Shown here: positions 59,808 through 64,000 of the stretch, one piece after another
Numbering within the stretch: position 1 is the first letter of the stretch
Layout of the letters: every line of letters begins with the position of its first letter
NCBI GenBank assembly: GCA_025934695.1
Contig: JAICWS010000002.1
Location: forward strand, 434,001 to 498,000
DNA length: 64,000 nt
DNA from: Alphaproteobacteria bacterium
GTDB lineage: Bacteria; Pseudomonadota; Alphaproteobacteria; Micavibrionales; UBA2020
Direction: 5' to 3'
The notes under the pieces: generated by a model
Seen by the model: only the letters and a program-made list of their open reading frames with translations
What the model was told of the DNA's origin: nothing
The model's database searches: none
Program-made: the position numbers and the translations under genes

Positions 59808-60218
59808 ATGGGACTCATATCGCTGGTGCTCCTTTGCGCCTTCACGCTGCTCTATTTAAGCAGCGCCATCCAGAACAAGCCGACCTTCGTCGAAAAGACG
59901 CTCGCCTTCATCAAGCAGAACCTCAATTACATCGCCATGGGCGGGCTGATTTACGGCTTCGTCGCGTTCTGCATTGCGCCAATTTCGGTCGCGAGCGGGC
60001 CGGGCATTTTCGTACGCATGGTCGCGGACCTGCTGATCGTCGTCATGGCCATACCCTATACTTTCGAAAAGCTCATCGCCCAGTACGAGGCCCAGATCAA
60101 CGCCGCCATCCTGCGCGAGGCGCGCAATATCGTGGCCGCCATCGCCGCCAGGGACAAGATCATCGGCTGGGCGGGCGCCGTGGTGGCGCTGCTGCTGTTC
60201 GCGGTGGTGTTCCAGTAA
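59808..60218 (+). CDS. Small membrane protein, 136 residues
   Basis: Four hydrophobic segments (MGLISLVLLCAFTLLYLSSA, NYIAMGGLIYGFVAFCIAPI, MVADLLIVVMAIPYTF, WAGAVVALLLFAVVFQ) with a short amphipathic helix before the last. Family not recognised. It lies 73 bp after the SirB1 gene. Confidence 0.7.
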   Translation: MGLISLVLLCAFTLLYLSSAIQNKPTFVEKTLAFIKQNLNYIAMGGLIYGFVAFCIAPISVASGPGIFVRMVADLLIVVMAIPYTFEKLIAQYEAQINAAILREARNIVAAIAARDKIIGWAGAVVALLLFAVVFQ

Positions 60219-60285
60219 CGCCCGCCGCTTGCCCGAGCGCGGACGGGGACTATTTTAATGGCAACGCAAGCGGGGGAGGCTGGGC

Positions 60286-61254
60286 ATTTCCAATACCGGT
60301 GACATCGCCAGGGCGCAGCGCCTGTCGTTCCAGGATTCCCTGCAACCCTTCCTGATTTTCGCGGCCTGGCTGTTCGCCTGGGAATTGCCGGTCGACGGCC
60401 TCTGGCTCAGTTTCAGCGTACTGGGCCCGCTGCACTACCTGACGCAGATGTCCTGGCTGCACGACCGTTCCTATTTCTTCCGCGACCCCTTGCCGAAAAA
60501 GATATTCGTGCCCGCCGCGGCGGTCGCGGCGGGATTTTATATTTACGCGGCGATCGAGCCCTCGGGTCTTTTCGAATCCGCCTGCGCGATCCTGGCGGTC
60601 TTCCTGCTGCCGGCCTTTATGCGCACGCCGAAGACGCTGCGCCTGGGCGTCGCGGCCGCGGCGTTCCTGGCCGTGCTGCTGTGCGTTTCGCCGCTCGCGG
60701 CCCTGTTCGCGGGCGTGTTCCTGCCCACGGTCGTGCATGTCGGGCTGTTCACGCTGCTGTTCCTGCTCACCGGCGCGCTGCGCGGCAACAGCATTGCCAG
60801 CTATATCTCGGCCCTCGCCTGGATCGTGGCGGCGGTCAGCCTGTTCCTGCTGCCGCCCAGCGGGCATCTGCTTGCGGGCGACTGGGCCAAGCCGCCGCGT
60901 ATCTTCTGGACCGGTCTGGCGGAAGGCTTCGGTTGGGTTTTCTCGATAAAGCCCTCGACGGTATTCCCGTTCCTGACCTTCGCCTATACCTATCACTTTC
61001 TGAACTGGTTCACGAAGACCGAGCTTTTGAAATGGCACCTGGTGCCGCCCCGGCGCCAGGCGGCCATCGGCGTCATCCTGGCCGTGACCCTGGCGGCCTG
61101 CCTTTACGATTACCAGTTCGGCTATATGACCCTGCTGCTGCCCTTAAGTATCATGCACGTGCTGCTGGAATTCCCGCTCGATATGCAGGTCATTCTGGGC
61201 CTGCCGGCGCTGGTCACGGCCAAAATCGCAAAGGCGCACGGGCCGGCTCGCTGA
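60286..61254 (+). CDS. Polytopic membrane protein, start codon uncertain
   Basis: The reading frame opens after a TAA at 60256 and encodes about ten hydrophobic segments. Coding character begins before the first ordinary start codon (TTG at 60385): QDSLQPFLIFAAWLFAWELP would be a first membrane helix. The best ribosome-binding site, GGGGGAGG at 60272-60279, is 6 bp before an ATT codon at 60286, which would give a 322-residue product with a rare AUU start. Family not recognised. The C-terminal 90 codons (60977-61246) are duplicated downstream at 62526. A 14-codon ATG frame at 60258-60302 overlaps the start region. Confidence 0.7.
   Translation: MSNTGDIARAQRLSFQDSLQPFLIFAAWLFAWELPVDGLWLSFSVLGPLHYLTQMSWLHDRSYFFRDPLPKKIFVPAAAVAAGFYIYAAIEPSGLFESACAILAVFLLPAFMRTPKTLRLGVAAAAFLAVLLCVSPLAALFAGVFLPTVVHVGLFTLLFLLTGALRGNSIASYISALAWIVAAVSLFLLPPSGHLLAGDWAKPPRIFWTGLAEGFGWVFSIKPSTVFPFLTFAYTYHFLNWFTKTELLKWHLVPPRRQAAIGVILAVTLAACLYDYQFGYMTLLLPLSIMHVLLEFPLDMQVILGLPALVTAKIAKAHGPAR
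60977..61246 (+). repeat. 270-bp direct repeat, upstream copy (3' end of membrane-protein gene)
   Basis: Matches 62526-62795 in the same orientation with 8 mismatches by my count and no gaps. This copy is in the intact gene. Confidence 0.95.
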
Positions 61255-61296
61255 CGGCGATGATGAAAATGCGCCGCGGATTTCATTTACGACAGC

Positions 61297-61872
61297 CTAC
61301 TTTCTGAACCTGAGCGGCCGGAAAACTTTGATTTTTTCCTGCGGCACGGTCGTCGCGCAAGCGTTCGGCACAGTCGGCGCGCGTTCCTTTGTTGCCGGAG
61401 ACATCCAGACCAATCGCAGGCGTCCAACGGTACTCTCGTCAAGCCCTCCGCTTCGCTTTGATCCGTTGCTGAAGTTTAGCCGGCATGACTGCCTTGAGAA
61501 TCCGCGTAAACGACGCTCTGAAAACGACCAATATTCACCCGCTTTCTTAAAGGTCCCTTTCAGGGCGCCCTTTTCCATGTTTTTATAAATTTGTTCTATT
61601 TGGCGTTCGGTGGGAATCTTGCCCCCGACTTTGCTAGCGCGGTGCATAGCCCGTTTGAAAGTATTCTTTGAAATAAGGCCCGCAGCCCAGCGCTCGTCTT
61701 TCGGTGAAATATAAAGTTCCATACCGGTTCTTTCTTCGACACCCATGTAGACCTGTCCGGCATGTAGATGACCCGCCGGCATTACGTCGCCAACCTCGAG
61801 CGCTTTCTGCGCCGGAGAATCATTTGCGGGGGTGCGTGAATCTTTGTTCCGTCCGAACTTCAATAAGCCCAT
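61297..61872 (-). CDS. DUF1566-like protein
   Basis: The 191-residue product has the pattern of the DUF1566/Lcl C-terminal domain: VGGKIPTERQIEQIYKNMEK, then KKAGEYWSFSE, LNFSNGSKRS and GRLRLVWM, with YWS-S-E and the closing L-R-L-V. This fold is C-type-lectin-like in phage and some secreted proteins. There is no signal peptide. The N-terminal half (HLHAGQVYMGVEERTGMELY) begins the same domain. AAGGAGAAGAAC precedes the ATG at 61872. It lies about 70 bp downstream of an intrinsic terminator, so its expression may depend on read-through. Confidence 0.65.
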   Translation of the reverse strand: MGLLKFGRNKDSRTPANDSPAQKALEVGDVMPAGHLHAGQVYMGVEERTGMELYISPKDERWAAGLISKNTFKRAMHRASKVGGKIPTERQIEQIYKNMEKGALKGTFKKAGEYWSFSERRLRGFSRQSCRLNFSNGSKRSGGLDESTVGRLRLVWMSPATKERAPTVPNACATTVPQEKIKVFRPLRFRK

Positions 61873-61941
61873 GTTCTTCTCCTTATCAACTGTTGCGGTT
61901 GATCAGGGCTGGCCATGTTGCGATCGGGAAGATCCAGACAT

Positions 61942-61979
61942 AAAAAAACAACCCTGAACGCTCAAGTTCAGTGGCTGTT
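61942..61979 (-). terminator. Intrinsic terminator in the leader of the DUF1566-like gene
   Basis: On the minus strand a hairpin (CTGAAC pairing with GTTCAG, extended by outer AACA/TGTT pairs) is followed by seven Ts (complement of 61942-61948). Confidence 0.75.
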
Positions 61980-62059
61980 TTGCTTTCGTGCTGTGATTGC
62001 CCAGAGGTAAAACAGTTCCTAAACTAGGAAAACCGCTCTGTCACAAGAGTGCACGTTGC
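61942..62059 (-). ncRNA. Putative small RNA/leader RNA, copy 1 (terminator-bearing)
   Basis: A promoter at 62066-62095 predicts transcription from about 62059, and the RNA would end at the terminator at 61942, about 118 nt. It can form a helix (GTGA-CAGAG with CTCTG-GGCAA-TCAC) around an inner hairpin (TTCCTA with TAGGAA). It is homologous to the leader at 62370-62480, sharing TCACAGCACG and GCAAAAC. It contains no credible open frame. Not a known family that I recognise; it could be an independent sRNA or an attenuator for the DUF1566-like gene. Confidence 0.55.
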
Positions 62060-62065
62060 AGGATA

Positions 62066-62095
62066 TTTATATCCGAGAGGGGGATACTATGTCAA
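62066..62095 (-). promoter_or_regulatory. Sigma70-type promoter of RNA copy 1
   Basis: On the minus strand TTGACA (62090-62095) and TATAAA (62066-62071) with 18-bp spacing. Confidence 0.7.
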
Positions 62096-62138
62096 CTAAT
62101 TCCGGGTGTGATAATGGGAATCCGGGCACCAAATCCGT

Positions 62139-62321
62139 CTACGGCCGGAAGTTTTCGTTCGGGTCGCCGTCGTCGTAGGAATTGGATTTCGTCCGGTCCC
62201 GGTAAGGCGTCGAGGAGTAATCGCGCTCGGGGTGGCGACGGCGTTCTTCGGCGTCCTTTCGGGCCTTTTCGTCGAATTCTTCCCGGATGTCGTCCATATC
62301 GGTCCAGCCGTCGTCGTTCAT
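62139..62321 (-). CDS. Small charged hypothetical protein, 60 residues
   Basis: MNDDGWTDMDDIREEFDEKA is the start; the protein is rich in Asp, Arg and Glu and predicted to be mostly disordered. GGAG precedes the ATG at 62321. It follows RNA copy 2, which has lost its terminator, so it may be transcribed from that promoter. Family not recognised. Confidence 0.5.
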   Translation of the reverse strand: MNDDGWTDMDDIREEFDEKARKDAEERRRHPERDYSSTPYRDRTKSNSYDDGDPNENFRP

Positions 62322-62369
62322 TGAAAGCTCCGTTGTCGGATAAGGGATCTGTCTAAAGGGATGGAATCG

Positions 62370-62480
62370 AATAATCCTGAATAACAAGTCCATGACGGTT
62401 TTGCCGACCGTGCTGTGAAGTCCCAGGCATGAAACGTGAATAGTCTTAAAAAACCACGCTGGCACAAGATGCACGCAACG
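62370..62480 (-). ncRNA. Putative small RNA/leader RNA, copy 2 (terminator decayed)
   Basis: Homologue of copy 1 under its own promoter. The closing helix is preserved with different bases (GTG-CCAG with CTGG-GACTT-CAC) around an inner hairpin (CGTG with CACG). The downstream hairpin that acts as terminator in copy 1 is disrupted here (ATTCAGGATTATT). The transcript probably runs into the 60-residue gene. Confidence 0.5.
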
Positions 62481-62485
62481 ATGAA

Positions 62486-62514
62486 AAGATAGCAAAGCTG
62501 GAGTGTTATGTCAA
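62486..62514 (-). promoter_or_regulatory. Sigma70-type promoter of RNA copy 2
   Basis: On the minus strand TTGACA (62509-62514) and TATCTT (62486-62491) with 17-bp spacing. The -35 is 12 bp from the downstream direct repeat. Confidence 0.65.
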
Positions 62515-62525
62515 TAGTGAGCGTG

Positions 62526-62795
62526 CCTTCGCCTATACCCATCACTTCCTGAACTGGTTCACGAAGACCGAGCTTTTGAAATGGCACCTGGTGCCGCCGC
62601 GGCGCCAGGCGGCCATCGGCGTCATCCTGGCCGTGACCCTGGCGGCCTGCCTTTACGATTACCAGTTCTGCTATATGACCCTGCTGCTGCCCTTAAGTAT
62701 CATGCACGTGCTGCTGGAATTCCCGCTCGATATGCAGGTCATTCTGGGCCTGCTGGCGCTGGTCACGGCCAAAGTCGCCAAGGCGCGCGGGCCGG
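62526..62795 (+). repeat. 270-bp direct repeat, downstream copy
   Basis: Same orientation as 60977-61246, 8 mismatches by my count, no gaps. Most of the differences are clustered at the two ends. Confidence 0.95.
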
Positions 62796-62803
62796 TGCCC
62801 TGA
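62526..62803 (+). pseudogene. Partial duplicate of the 60286-61254 membrane-protein gene
   Basis: Encodes only the last 90 or so residues (FAYTHHFLNWFTKTELLKWH onward) with a changed end (KARGPVP). The frame upstream is open for about 25 codons but has no start codon or Shine-Dalgarno before the homologous part. An internal ATG at 62576 exists. I regard it as a non-functional 5'-truncated copy. Confidence 0.8.
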
Positions 62804-62987
62804 TGCCCGCTGAATGATGGAAAAAGCATATAAACCGGGTTTTTCAGAAGGGGGGCGCTTGACCCCGCCCCAAGTCGACCTTAAATTTGACCAGCCTGCG
62901 CCGCAAGGGCTCCGCGCGACTGTGGGTGCCGGTCGATGGCGCGGGCAATGACGACCCGGACAGTTACATAAATTAAGGAAAACGAAC

Positions 62988-64000
62988 ATGGCCTCTTATC
63001 AATACGTCTATGTCATGAAAGGCCTGTCCAAGACCTATCCGGGCGGGAAAAAGGTGCTGGATAACATCTATCTCAGCTTCCTTCCCGGCGCGAAGATCGG
63101 CGTGCTTGGCCCCAACGGCTCGGGTAAGTCGACGCTGCTCAAAGTCATGGCCGGTGTGGAAAAGGAATTCCAGGGCGAAGCCTGGTCGGCCGAAGGCGCG
63201 CGCGTGGGCTACCTGCCGCAGGAGCCGCAGCTGGATCCCAACAAGACCGTGCTCGAAAACGTCATGGAAGCGATGAAGGACGTCAAATCGCTTCTCGACC
63301 GCTATAACGAGATCACGAACAAATTCTCCGAAGAAGGGGCCGATTTCGACGCGCTCATGGCCGAACAGGGCGAGCTGCAGACGAAGATCGAGCAGGCCGA
63401 CGGCTGGAACCTCGAGCGCACCCTCGAAATCGCGCTCGACGCCCTGCGCTGCCCGCCGGGAGACGCGAAAGTCACGCACCTTTCCGGCGGCGAAAAGCGC
63501 CGCGTGGCGCTGTGCCGCCTGCTGCTCGAAAAGCCCGACCTGCTGCTGCTCGACGAACCGACGAACCATCTGGACGCGGAATCCGTCCAATGGTTGCAGC
63601 GCACGCTGGCCGACTATCGCGGCACCATCGTCATGGTCACGCACGACCGCTACTTCCTCGACAACGTGACGGGCTGGATCCTCGAACTCGACCGTGGCTC
63701 CGGCATTCCGTACGAAGGCAACTATACCGGCTATCTCGACAAAAAATCCAAACGCCTCGAACAGGAAGGCCGCGAGCAGGAAGCGCGCCAGAAGACGCTG
63801 TCCCGCGAACTCGAATGGGTGCGCCAGTCGCCCAAGGCCCGCATGGCGAAATCCAAGGCGCGTATCACCGCTTATAACGACCTGCTGGCCGAAAGCGAAA
63901 AGCACGAGAAGACGCGCACGGCGCAGATCATCATCCCCGTGCCGCCGCGCCTTGGCCAAAACGTCGTCGAGTTCAAGAACGTCTCGAAAGGATATGACGA
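62988..64000 (+). CDS. ettA: ABC-F ATPase EttA (energy-dependent translational throttle), 3' end outside window
   Basis: 337 codons are visible. The first ABC domain is complete: Walker A LGPNGSGKST at about 40-49, signature LSGGEKRRVALCRLLL, Walker B LLLLDEPTNHLDAESV and the H-loop VTHDRYFLDNV. The interdomain linker (RQKTLSRELEWVRQSPKARM) and the beginning of the second domain follow (FKNVSKGYD). GRLPQEPQLDP-like YLPQEPQLDP and PPGDAKVTHLSGGEKR are typical for EttA, which sits in the ribosomal E site and couples translation to ATP. AAGGAAAACGAAC precedes the ATG. It is outside the direct-repeat module. Confidence 0.93.
   Translation, partial: MASYQYVYVMKGLSKTYPGGKKVLDNIYLSFLPGAKIGVLGPNGSGKSTLLKVMAGVEKEFQGEAWSAEGARVGYLPQEPQLDPNKTVLENVMEAMKDVKSLLDRYNEITNKFSEEGADFDALMAEQGELQTKIEQADGWNLERTLEIALDALRCPPGDAKVTHLSGGEKRRVALCRLLLEKPDLLLLDEPTNHLDAESVQWLQRTLADYRGTIVMVTHDRYFLDNVTGWILELDRGSGIPYEGNYTGYLDKKSKRLEQEGREQEARQKTLSRELEWVRQSPKARMAKSKARITAYNDLLAESEKHEKTRTAQIIIPVPPRLGQNVVEFKNVSKGYD

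Follow-up and report, generated by a model that had tools for sequence, protein, structure and literature searches.

The element e14 restores the tail of its target gene icd and leaves the displaced tail (163 bp) behind (PMC6379469), and integrative mobilizable elements (IMEs) and cis-mobilizable elements (CIMEs) likewise restore the tail of the target gene and leave the displaced one (PMC5704250). Homology-facilitated illegitimate recombination (HFIR) has been described as a process (PMC3240628), and transformation can yield duplications that are bordered by repeats (PMC3784515). Here we describe a 1.28-kb module in a 64,000-nucleotide stretch of the genome of an Alphaproteobacteria bacterium (the window; assembly GCA_025934695.1, contig JAICWS010000002.1, positions 434,001 to 498,000), which lies between an intact membrane-protein gene and a headless copy of the 3' end of that gene. 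On balance we think it probable that the module is two tandem lineage-specific cassettes, that these belong, as a single locus, to a regulon with about 63 leaders in which the leader is a switch, and that they arrived together with the tail duplicate. The nearest precedents for the insertion are e14 at icd, the CIMEs and HFIR.

A direct repeat and an empty site

The last 278 nt of the membrane-protein gene (copy R) recur on the far side of the module (copy R') as an ungapped direct repeat with 96.0% identity (BLAST E 3e-127), which is far beyond chance. An earlier note on this DNA had reported 270 bp of this repeat (60977-61246 and 62526-62795) with 8 mismatches and no gaps; these figures hold, and the match can be extended to 278 nt. 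As that note also stated, copy R ends an intact open reading frame (ORF) and copy R' is headless. The frame and stop are retained in R'. Two of the differences between the copies could be resolved with five homologues (Y to H and G to C). All five homologues have Y and G, and both changes sit in R', so the headless copy is the decaying one. The repeat is real, and repeats of its kind are known.

The DNA between the copies was correctly described as AT-richer (51.4% G+C against 60.7% for the window), and it holds two small genes, both on the minus strand and each behind a TTGACATA promoter and an RNA leader. The earlier tally of two genes and two leaders was accurate and understated the matter, as the two leaders share homology with one another and with about 60 others in the genome. 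At the DNA level segments of the module have matches at three further places in the genome, two in the leader and one in the C-terminal tag described below, and no match to the module was found in the phage or plasmid collections. The idea of the module as an element survives as regards insertion but not as regards uniqueness, the module being two members of a large cassette family.

Three of the five congeners (G001 to G005, this genome being G000) have an empty site: in G002, G003 and G004 a homologue of the 136-aa gene on the left is followed by ettA with nothing between. In G005 the contig ends inside ettA, and in both G001 and G005 the membrane gene and ettA lie on separate contigs. The 2.77 kb at 60219-62987 are best read from this synteny as a lineage-specific gain. 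The proposed insertion is borne out to that extent, but the gain compared is the 2.77 kb and not only the 1.28 kb of the module, and where the earlier note had proposed to look for an empty site with a single copy of the gene, the membrane gene is missing from the three empty loci as well. The empty sites therefore do not separate the gene's arrival from that of the module. The membrane gene is present in 7 of the 55 genomes searched, this one included. In G001 the junction between the 136-aa gene and ettA holds a different insert of about 1.8 kb (L143, 5200-7000), methyltransferase-like by reading, and given this insert the junction may be an insertion hot spot.

A family of structured leaders with a fixed promoter

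The leader family is novel and, compared with the repeat, the more interesting part of the locus. It is made up of an extended TTGACATAAT promoter followed by an RNA of about 110 nt with two stacked stems and a terminator-like hairpin. This genome has at least 63 copies; scoring was confined to the best candidates, which makes the count a minimum. The covariance model R1, built from five leaders, gave 63 matches in 40 stretches of the genome, which came to 61 distinct places once two places that turned up twice, in loci that overlap, had been counted singly. Two more copies (C3:1053232 and C3:856272) were found with R2, a model built from nine leaders with the promoter excluded. R2 gave 51 matches across 92 sources, and the 20 control stretches of 20 kb each (400 kb) yielded no match. 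In an independent whole-genome R2 search of six genomes, TTGACA lay 34-43 nt upstream of 29 of the 30 matches that were fetched, where chance would place it before about 0.7% of them; the thirtieth has TTTGCATA instead.

Single-sequence folds of most copies give an outer stem P1, an inner stem P2 with GGUUU/GAUUU and with GUUUC in its loop, and a hairpin P3, AAAACRGCCA..UGGYUGUUU. Across 50 distinct aligned leaders 87.7% of cells are paired and 27 of 30 pairs show compensatory (double) changes. Covariation scores 0.349, where shuffles reach 0.129 (sd 0.008) and slid versions 0.043-0.094, in an alignment that was fitted to the tested structure and so favours it, which the slid controls correct only in part. 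GUUUY stands in the P2 region of 94 of 98 leaders and RAAAC further 3' in 92 of 98. The -10 box would place the transcription start at or near P1. Like a cis-regulatory leader, the family combines a conserved covarying structure with a position 5' of genes, on the coding strand.

The family appears to be confined to a narrow lineage. The five congeners, G001 to G005, have 23, 10, 7, 13 and 9 leader matches at E up to 1. Across the order, matches at E ≤0.001 were obtained for 12 of 114 genomes, of which 10 come from the family of this genome and two (G042 and G103) are unconfirmed, and at the level of the class the only match among 142 genomes is this genome itself, with none in the other 141. 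A pattern scan of viral contigs gave seven stretches, none of them scored by R1 and all chance matches by reading. Rfam 15 gave no match in the window and only unrelated weak matches for the module; around the leaders of seven loci its only matches were to a tRNA lying apart from the leader and to two weak families without relation to it. Word searches of openly licensed papers did not find the leader family.

Of 62 leaders, 20 lie within 140 kb (G000:C3:976001-1116000), among many orphan and repeat-protein genes, and this region is a possible island. Four loci there (L098, L099, L097 and L100; C3:1016001-1116000) also contain dispersed palindromic intergenic repeats of about 110-120 nt (CCCCGGCGAAAGCCGGGGTC..), which form an array with inverted copies in L100.

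Genes behind the leaders and a shared C-terminal tag

A Pfam scan of the proteins of 59 of the 61 leader genes of this genome (two with a doubtful ORF were excluded) found four ankyrin proteins, single cases of NAMPT, peptidase M15, LRR and others, and no family in most. The 37 leader-gene proteins of relatives included two ankyrin proteins and one phospholipase/carboxylesterase; the downstream ORFs were chosen by script and are partly uncertain (for instance, L095:6986, L100:14976 and L089:3001). Many of the leader genes resemble genes for proteins that are exported or make contact with a host (ankyrin, leucine-rich-like, lectin-like and orphans). At L111:3374-4987 a leader stands ahead of a nicotinamide phosphoribosyltransferase gene that is strongly similar to the phage family PHROG 448.

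A C-terminal tag of about 19 residues, ATVLQExxxVxRPLSFRK-stop, is carried, at E ≤0.02, by 18 genes here, the 191-aa gene of the module included. It sits at the very C-terminus wherever a locus was read in the matching frame; minus-strand loci were not reoriented and carry no information on this point. Fourteen of the 18 tagged genes lie within 3 kb of a leader, against an expectation of 7.5% of the genome (p 4e-13), for a profile that was built from 7 of the 18 tails, all noticed beside leaders. When these seven are set aside, 7 of 11 are near a leader, still well above 7.5%. The tag, shared by about 18 proteins, may be an export or delivery signal. The tag (loci L199-L228; window 61300-61356) is also present on several G001 proteins.

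Tail repeats at other leader cassettes

Repeats of gene tails at other leader cassettes are suggestive. In G004, L162 has the tail of a 151-aa gene, a cassette and then a similar tail (91 nt, 83.5%), this second one possibly a paralogous end, and in L127 the tail of a convergent gene recurs on the upstream side of the leader (44 nt, 93%) and then once more. In G003 the L160 cassette lies between two 3' fragments (57 nt, 91%), called tRNA-Leu by their likeness to the tRNA-Leu of L101 and neither of them a whole tRNA (ARAGORN: none). The comparison with integration at tRNA genes in the earlier note finds some echo in L160, and among the leaders of this genome no enrichment near tRNAs was visible by eye. 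L100 has a 31-nt tail (29 matches) between the end of a gene and the end of a tagged gene; the gene behind this tail has no homologue in the five congeners, and therefore no empty site is readable. L112 contains a whole gene, which we take to be phnA-like, and a frameshifted copy (448 nt, 91%), and at L108 an 82-nt tail of a kinase-like gene lies beside the cassette and not around it.

A cross-locus null reached a maximum of 25.5 in 392 pairs, and in a bit-score test with a threshold of at least 45 bits repeats were found at 13 of 99 leaders, compared with 10 of the 200 controls. At a score of 25 or more the excess over control positions is modest (9 of 98 against 44 of 1160), and flanking repeats as a general rule for leader cassettes are unproven.

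Features of the locus

The features of the locus are listed in Table 1. No ATG stands close to the apparent N-terminus of the membrane gene, and homologues suggest a start near the ATT at 60286, behind a GGGGGAGG stretch. Among the ten matches listed for EttA in the plasmid collection, nine are alphaproteobacterial, at 59-64%, and the remaining one, at 59%, comes from an E. coli plasmid record.

Table 1. Coordinates of features at and around the module (positions in the window)
Feature	Position	Strand	Evidence or remark
Membrane-protein gene of 136 aa, left neighbour of the insertion	59808..60218	+	Directly precedes ettA in G002, G003 and G004
Stretch missing from the empty sites of G002, G003 and G004	60219..62987		tblastn synteny, ORFs of relatives against the window
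Intact membrane-protein gene, 289 aa from TTG	60385..61254	+	Stop-to-stop frame of 331 aa; perhaps from ATT 60286
Copy R of the direct repeat, final 278 nt of the membrane gene	60977..61254	+	Sequence alignment
Gene of 191 aa, divergent relative of Lcl_C-domain proteins, with C-terminal tag ATTVPQEKIKVFRPLRFRK	61297..61872	-	Tag profile E 3.4e-9 (profile built with this gene's own tag included)
Promoter and RNA leader 1	61946..62095	-	Covariance model R1, 117 bits (copy in R1's building set)
Acidic ORF of 60 aa	62139..62321	-	Own genome only, of 55 searched
Promoter (TTGACA, 17 nt, TATCTT) and RNA leader 2	62369..62514	-	Covariance model R1, 123 bits (copy in R1's building set); promoter scan
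Direct repeat copy R', headless, decaying	62526..62803	+	Starts 11 nt upstream of the -35 box of leader 2
ettA, right neighbour of the insertion, runs off the window	62988..64000	+	85-93% identical in five congeners; annotated EttA relatives

The 191-aa protein gave a BLAST match of 29% over 100 residues to proteins that score for Lcl_C and that are multicopy in genus g3, and itself has no Pfam family above the cut-off, Lcl_C (PF07603) included. After the residues YWS, frame 1 (FQSVVYADSQGSHAG) is closer to the Lcl_C relatives, as if two compensating frame changes had occurred, whether natural or by sequencing error. AlphaFold gave the protein alone a pLDDT of 33.6. The 60-aa acidic ORF has no relative in the 55 genomes searched and occurs in its own genome only.

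Proposed mechanism and alternatives

Each cassette would consist of a sigma-70-type promoter whose sequence is fixed, a 5' leader RNA that is structured and begins at or near the predicted transcription start, and a small gene. The leader, in which an irregular P1-P2 hairpin, its GUUUC loop almost invariant, is followed by the terminator-like hairpin P3 (AAAACxGCC..GGYUGUUUU), is probably a cis-acting switch that acts at P3, probably by attenuation: in the off state transcription would end at P3, and in the on state the GUUU of P2 would hold the AAAC at the foot of P3. The sequence of P3 points weakly to a terminator role. Insertion of the module most likely took a single crossover within the tail, plus a non-homologous junction immediately upstream of leader 2, after which the intact gene would be preserved and the spare tail would decay.

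Several observations weigh against this reading. A terminator scan finds 2 terminator-like sites where 2.6 are expected by shuffling, P3 is trailed by only 3-5 T in many copies, and the proposed contact between P2 and P3 comes from invariant bases, without covariation. The tag is linked to no export system, and the 191-aa gene is partly out of frame relative to its Lcl_C relatives. Other cassettes with tail repeats are few: repeat pairs scoring at least 25 occur at 9 of 98 leaders (nine rows in eight loci, two of the rows being this window, with L098 an ankyrin gene pair and L090 possibly paralogs), against 44 of 1160 leader-free control positions, which overlap and whose pairs are mostly paralogs by reading.

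As for how the cassettes came to lie behind the gene, the route we favour, tentatively, is HFIR or a single crossover with DNA of a relative that carried cassettes behind the same gene. Such an event yields exactly the order R-module-R', with one homologous and one non-homologous junction, and has precedents in PMC3240628 and PMC3784515, but a donor with this gene order was not found (in G001 and G005 the membrane gene lies elsewhere) and the module is unmatched in phages and plasmids. An unlikely course is that the tail was duplicated in tandem before the cassettes were inserted or remodelled between the copies. Tail duplications readily arise and the insertion point is near the junction, yet a second event would be needed almost exactly at the copy boundary, the start of R' and leader 2's -35 box being 11 nt apart. 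Still more doubtful is an integrative element whose attachment (att) site carried the tail of the target, as in e14 at icd, and whose recombinase was lost or acted in trans, leaving a CIME-like relic. The restored target tail and the displaced tail left behind agree with e14 and the IMEs/CIMEs, and the layouts at L160 (tRNA-Leu fragments), L127, L162 and L100 (31-nt tail) are similar. However, repeat lengths range widely, from 31 to 448 nt, with no common core by reading, the headless tail of L108 stands beside its cassette rather than across it, and the second tail of L162 may be a paralogous C-terminus. There is also no integrase near any leader. The earlier observation that an integrase is lacking is upheld, since the module has no recombinase-sized ORF and only three PF00589 matches occur in the genome, none closer than about 15 kb to a leader.

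The switch itself has an alternative that we regard as somewhat unlikely, namely that the leader is a dispersed repeat of promoter and leader which recombination has copied from gene to gene and whose structure serves RNA stability or protein binding. In its favour, the promoter is as conserved as the RNA, and leader 1 and the leader of L002/L101 are alike up to the start codon while their proteins differ. Against it, covariation in all helices shows selection on the fold, and the leaders are diverse and not recent copies. About 63 leaders in one genome, together with the tag, give a sequence handle on unnamed, probably exported proteins of a little-studied lineage, and raise the questions of which single signal switches so many unrelated genes and how small cassettes free of a recombinase settle behind genes harmlessly. 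It would be a long step further, and we hold it to be improbable, that these cassettes form a non-autonomous class combining a promoter, an RNA switch, a variable body and a fixed C-terminal delivery tag, which spreads by inserting behind the 3' ends of genes and tRNAs and in doing so duplicates and preserves the tail of its target; a single signal, sensed through one RNA fold, would then switch an entire, freely reshuffled arsenal of exported proteins.

Comparison with known systems

The locus shares with e14 at icd and with the IMEs and CIMEs an intact target gene, a cargo and a displaced headless 3' end behind it. Both this layout and an empty locus are present here, but the empty relatives are without the membrane gene as well. 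The module differs from those elements in that no integrase or att core was found, in a cargo of two leader cassettes within 1.28 kb and in a repeat of 278 nt.

Terminal reassortment of secreted effectors joins shared ends to different bodies. The leader genes resemble this pattern in having a promoter and leader on the 5' side, a tag at the C-terminus and differing bodies; what would mark them as candidate secreted effectors is the shared C-terminal tag and repeat domains, read from sequence. In contrast to that pattern, the shared 5' part here is a structured RNA and not a coded secretion signal, and secretion is putative.

The orphan riboswitch and attenuator leaders of Rfam are also similar, being covarying conserved 5' leaders before unrelated genes with a terminator-type hairpin on the 3' side. 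The leaders described here differ from them in matching no Rfam family, in following no metabolic pathway, and in occurring in about 63 copies in one genome, with a fixed promoter and ahead of mostly orphan genes.
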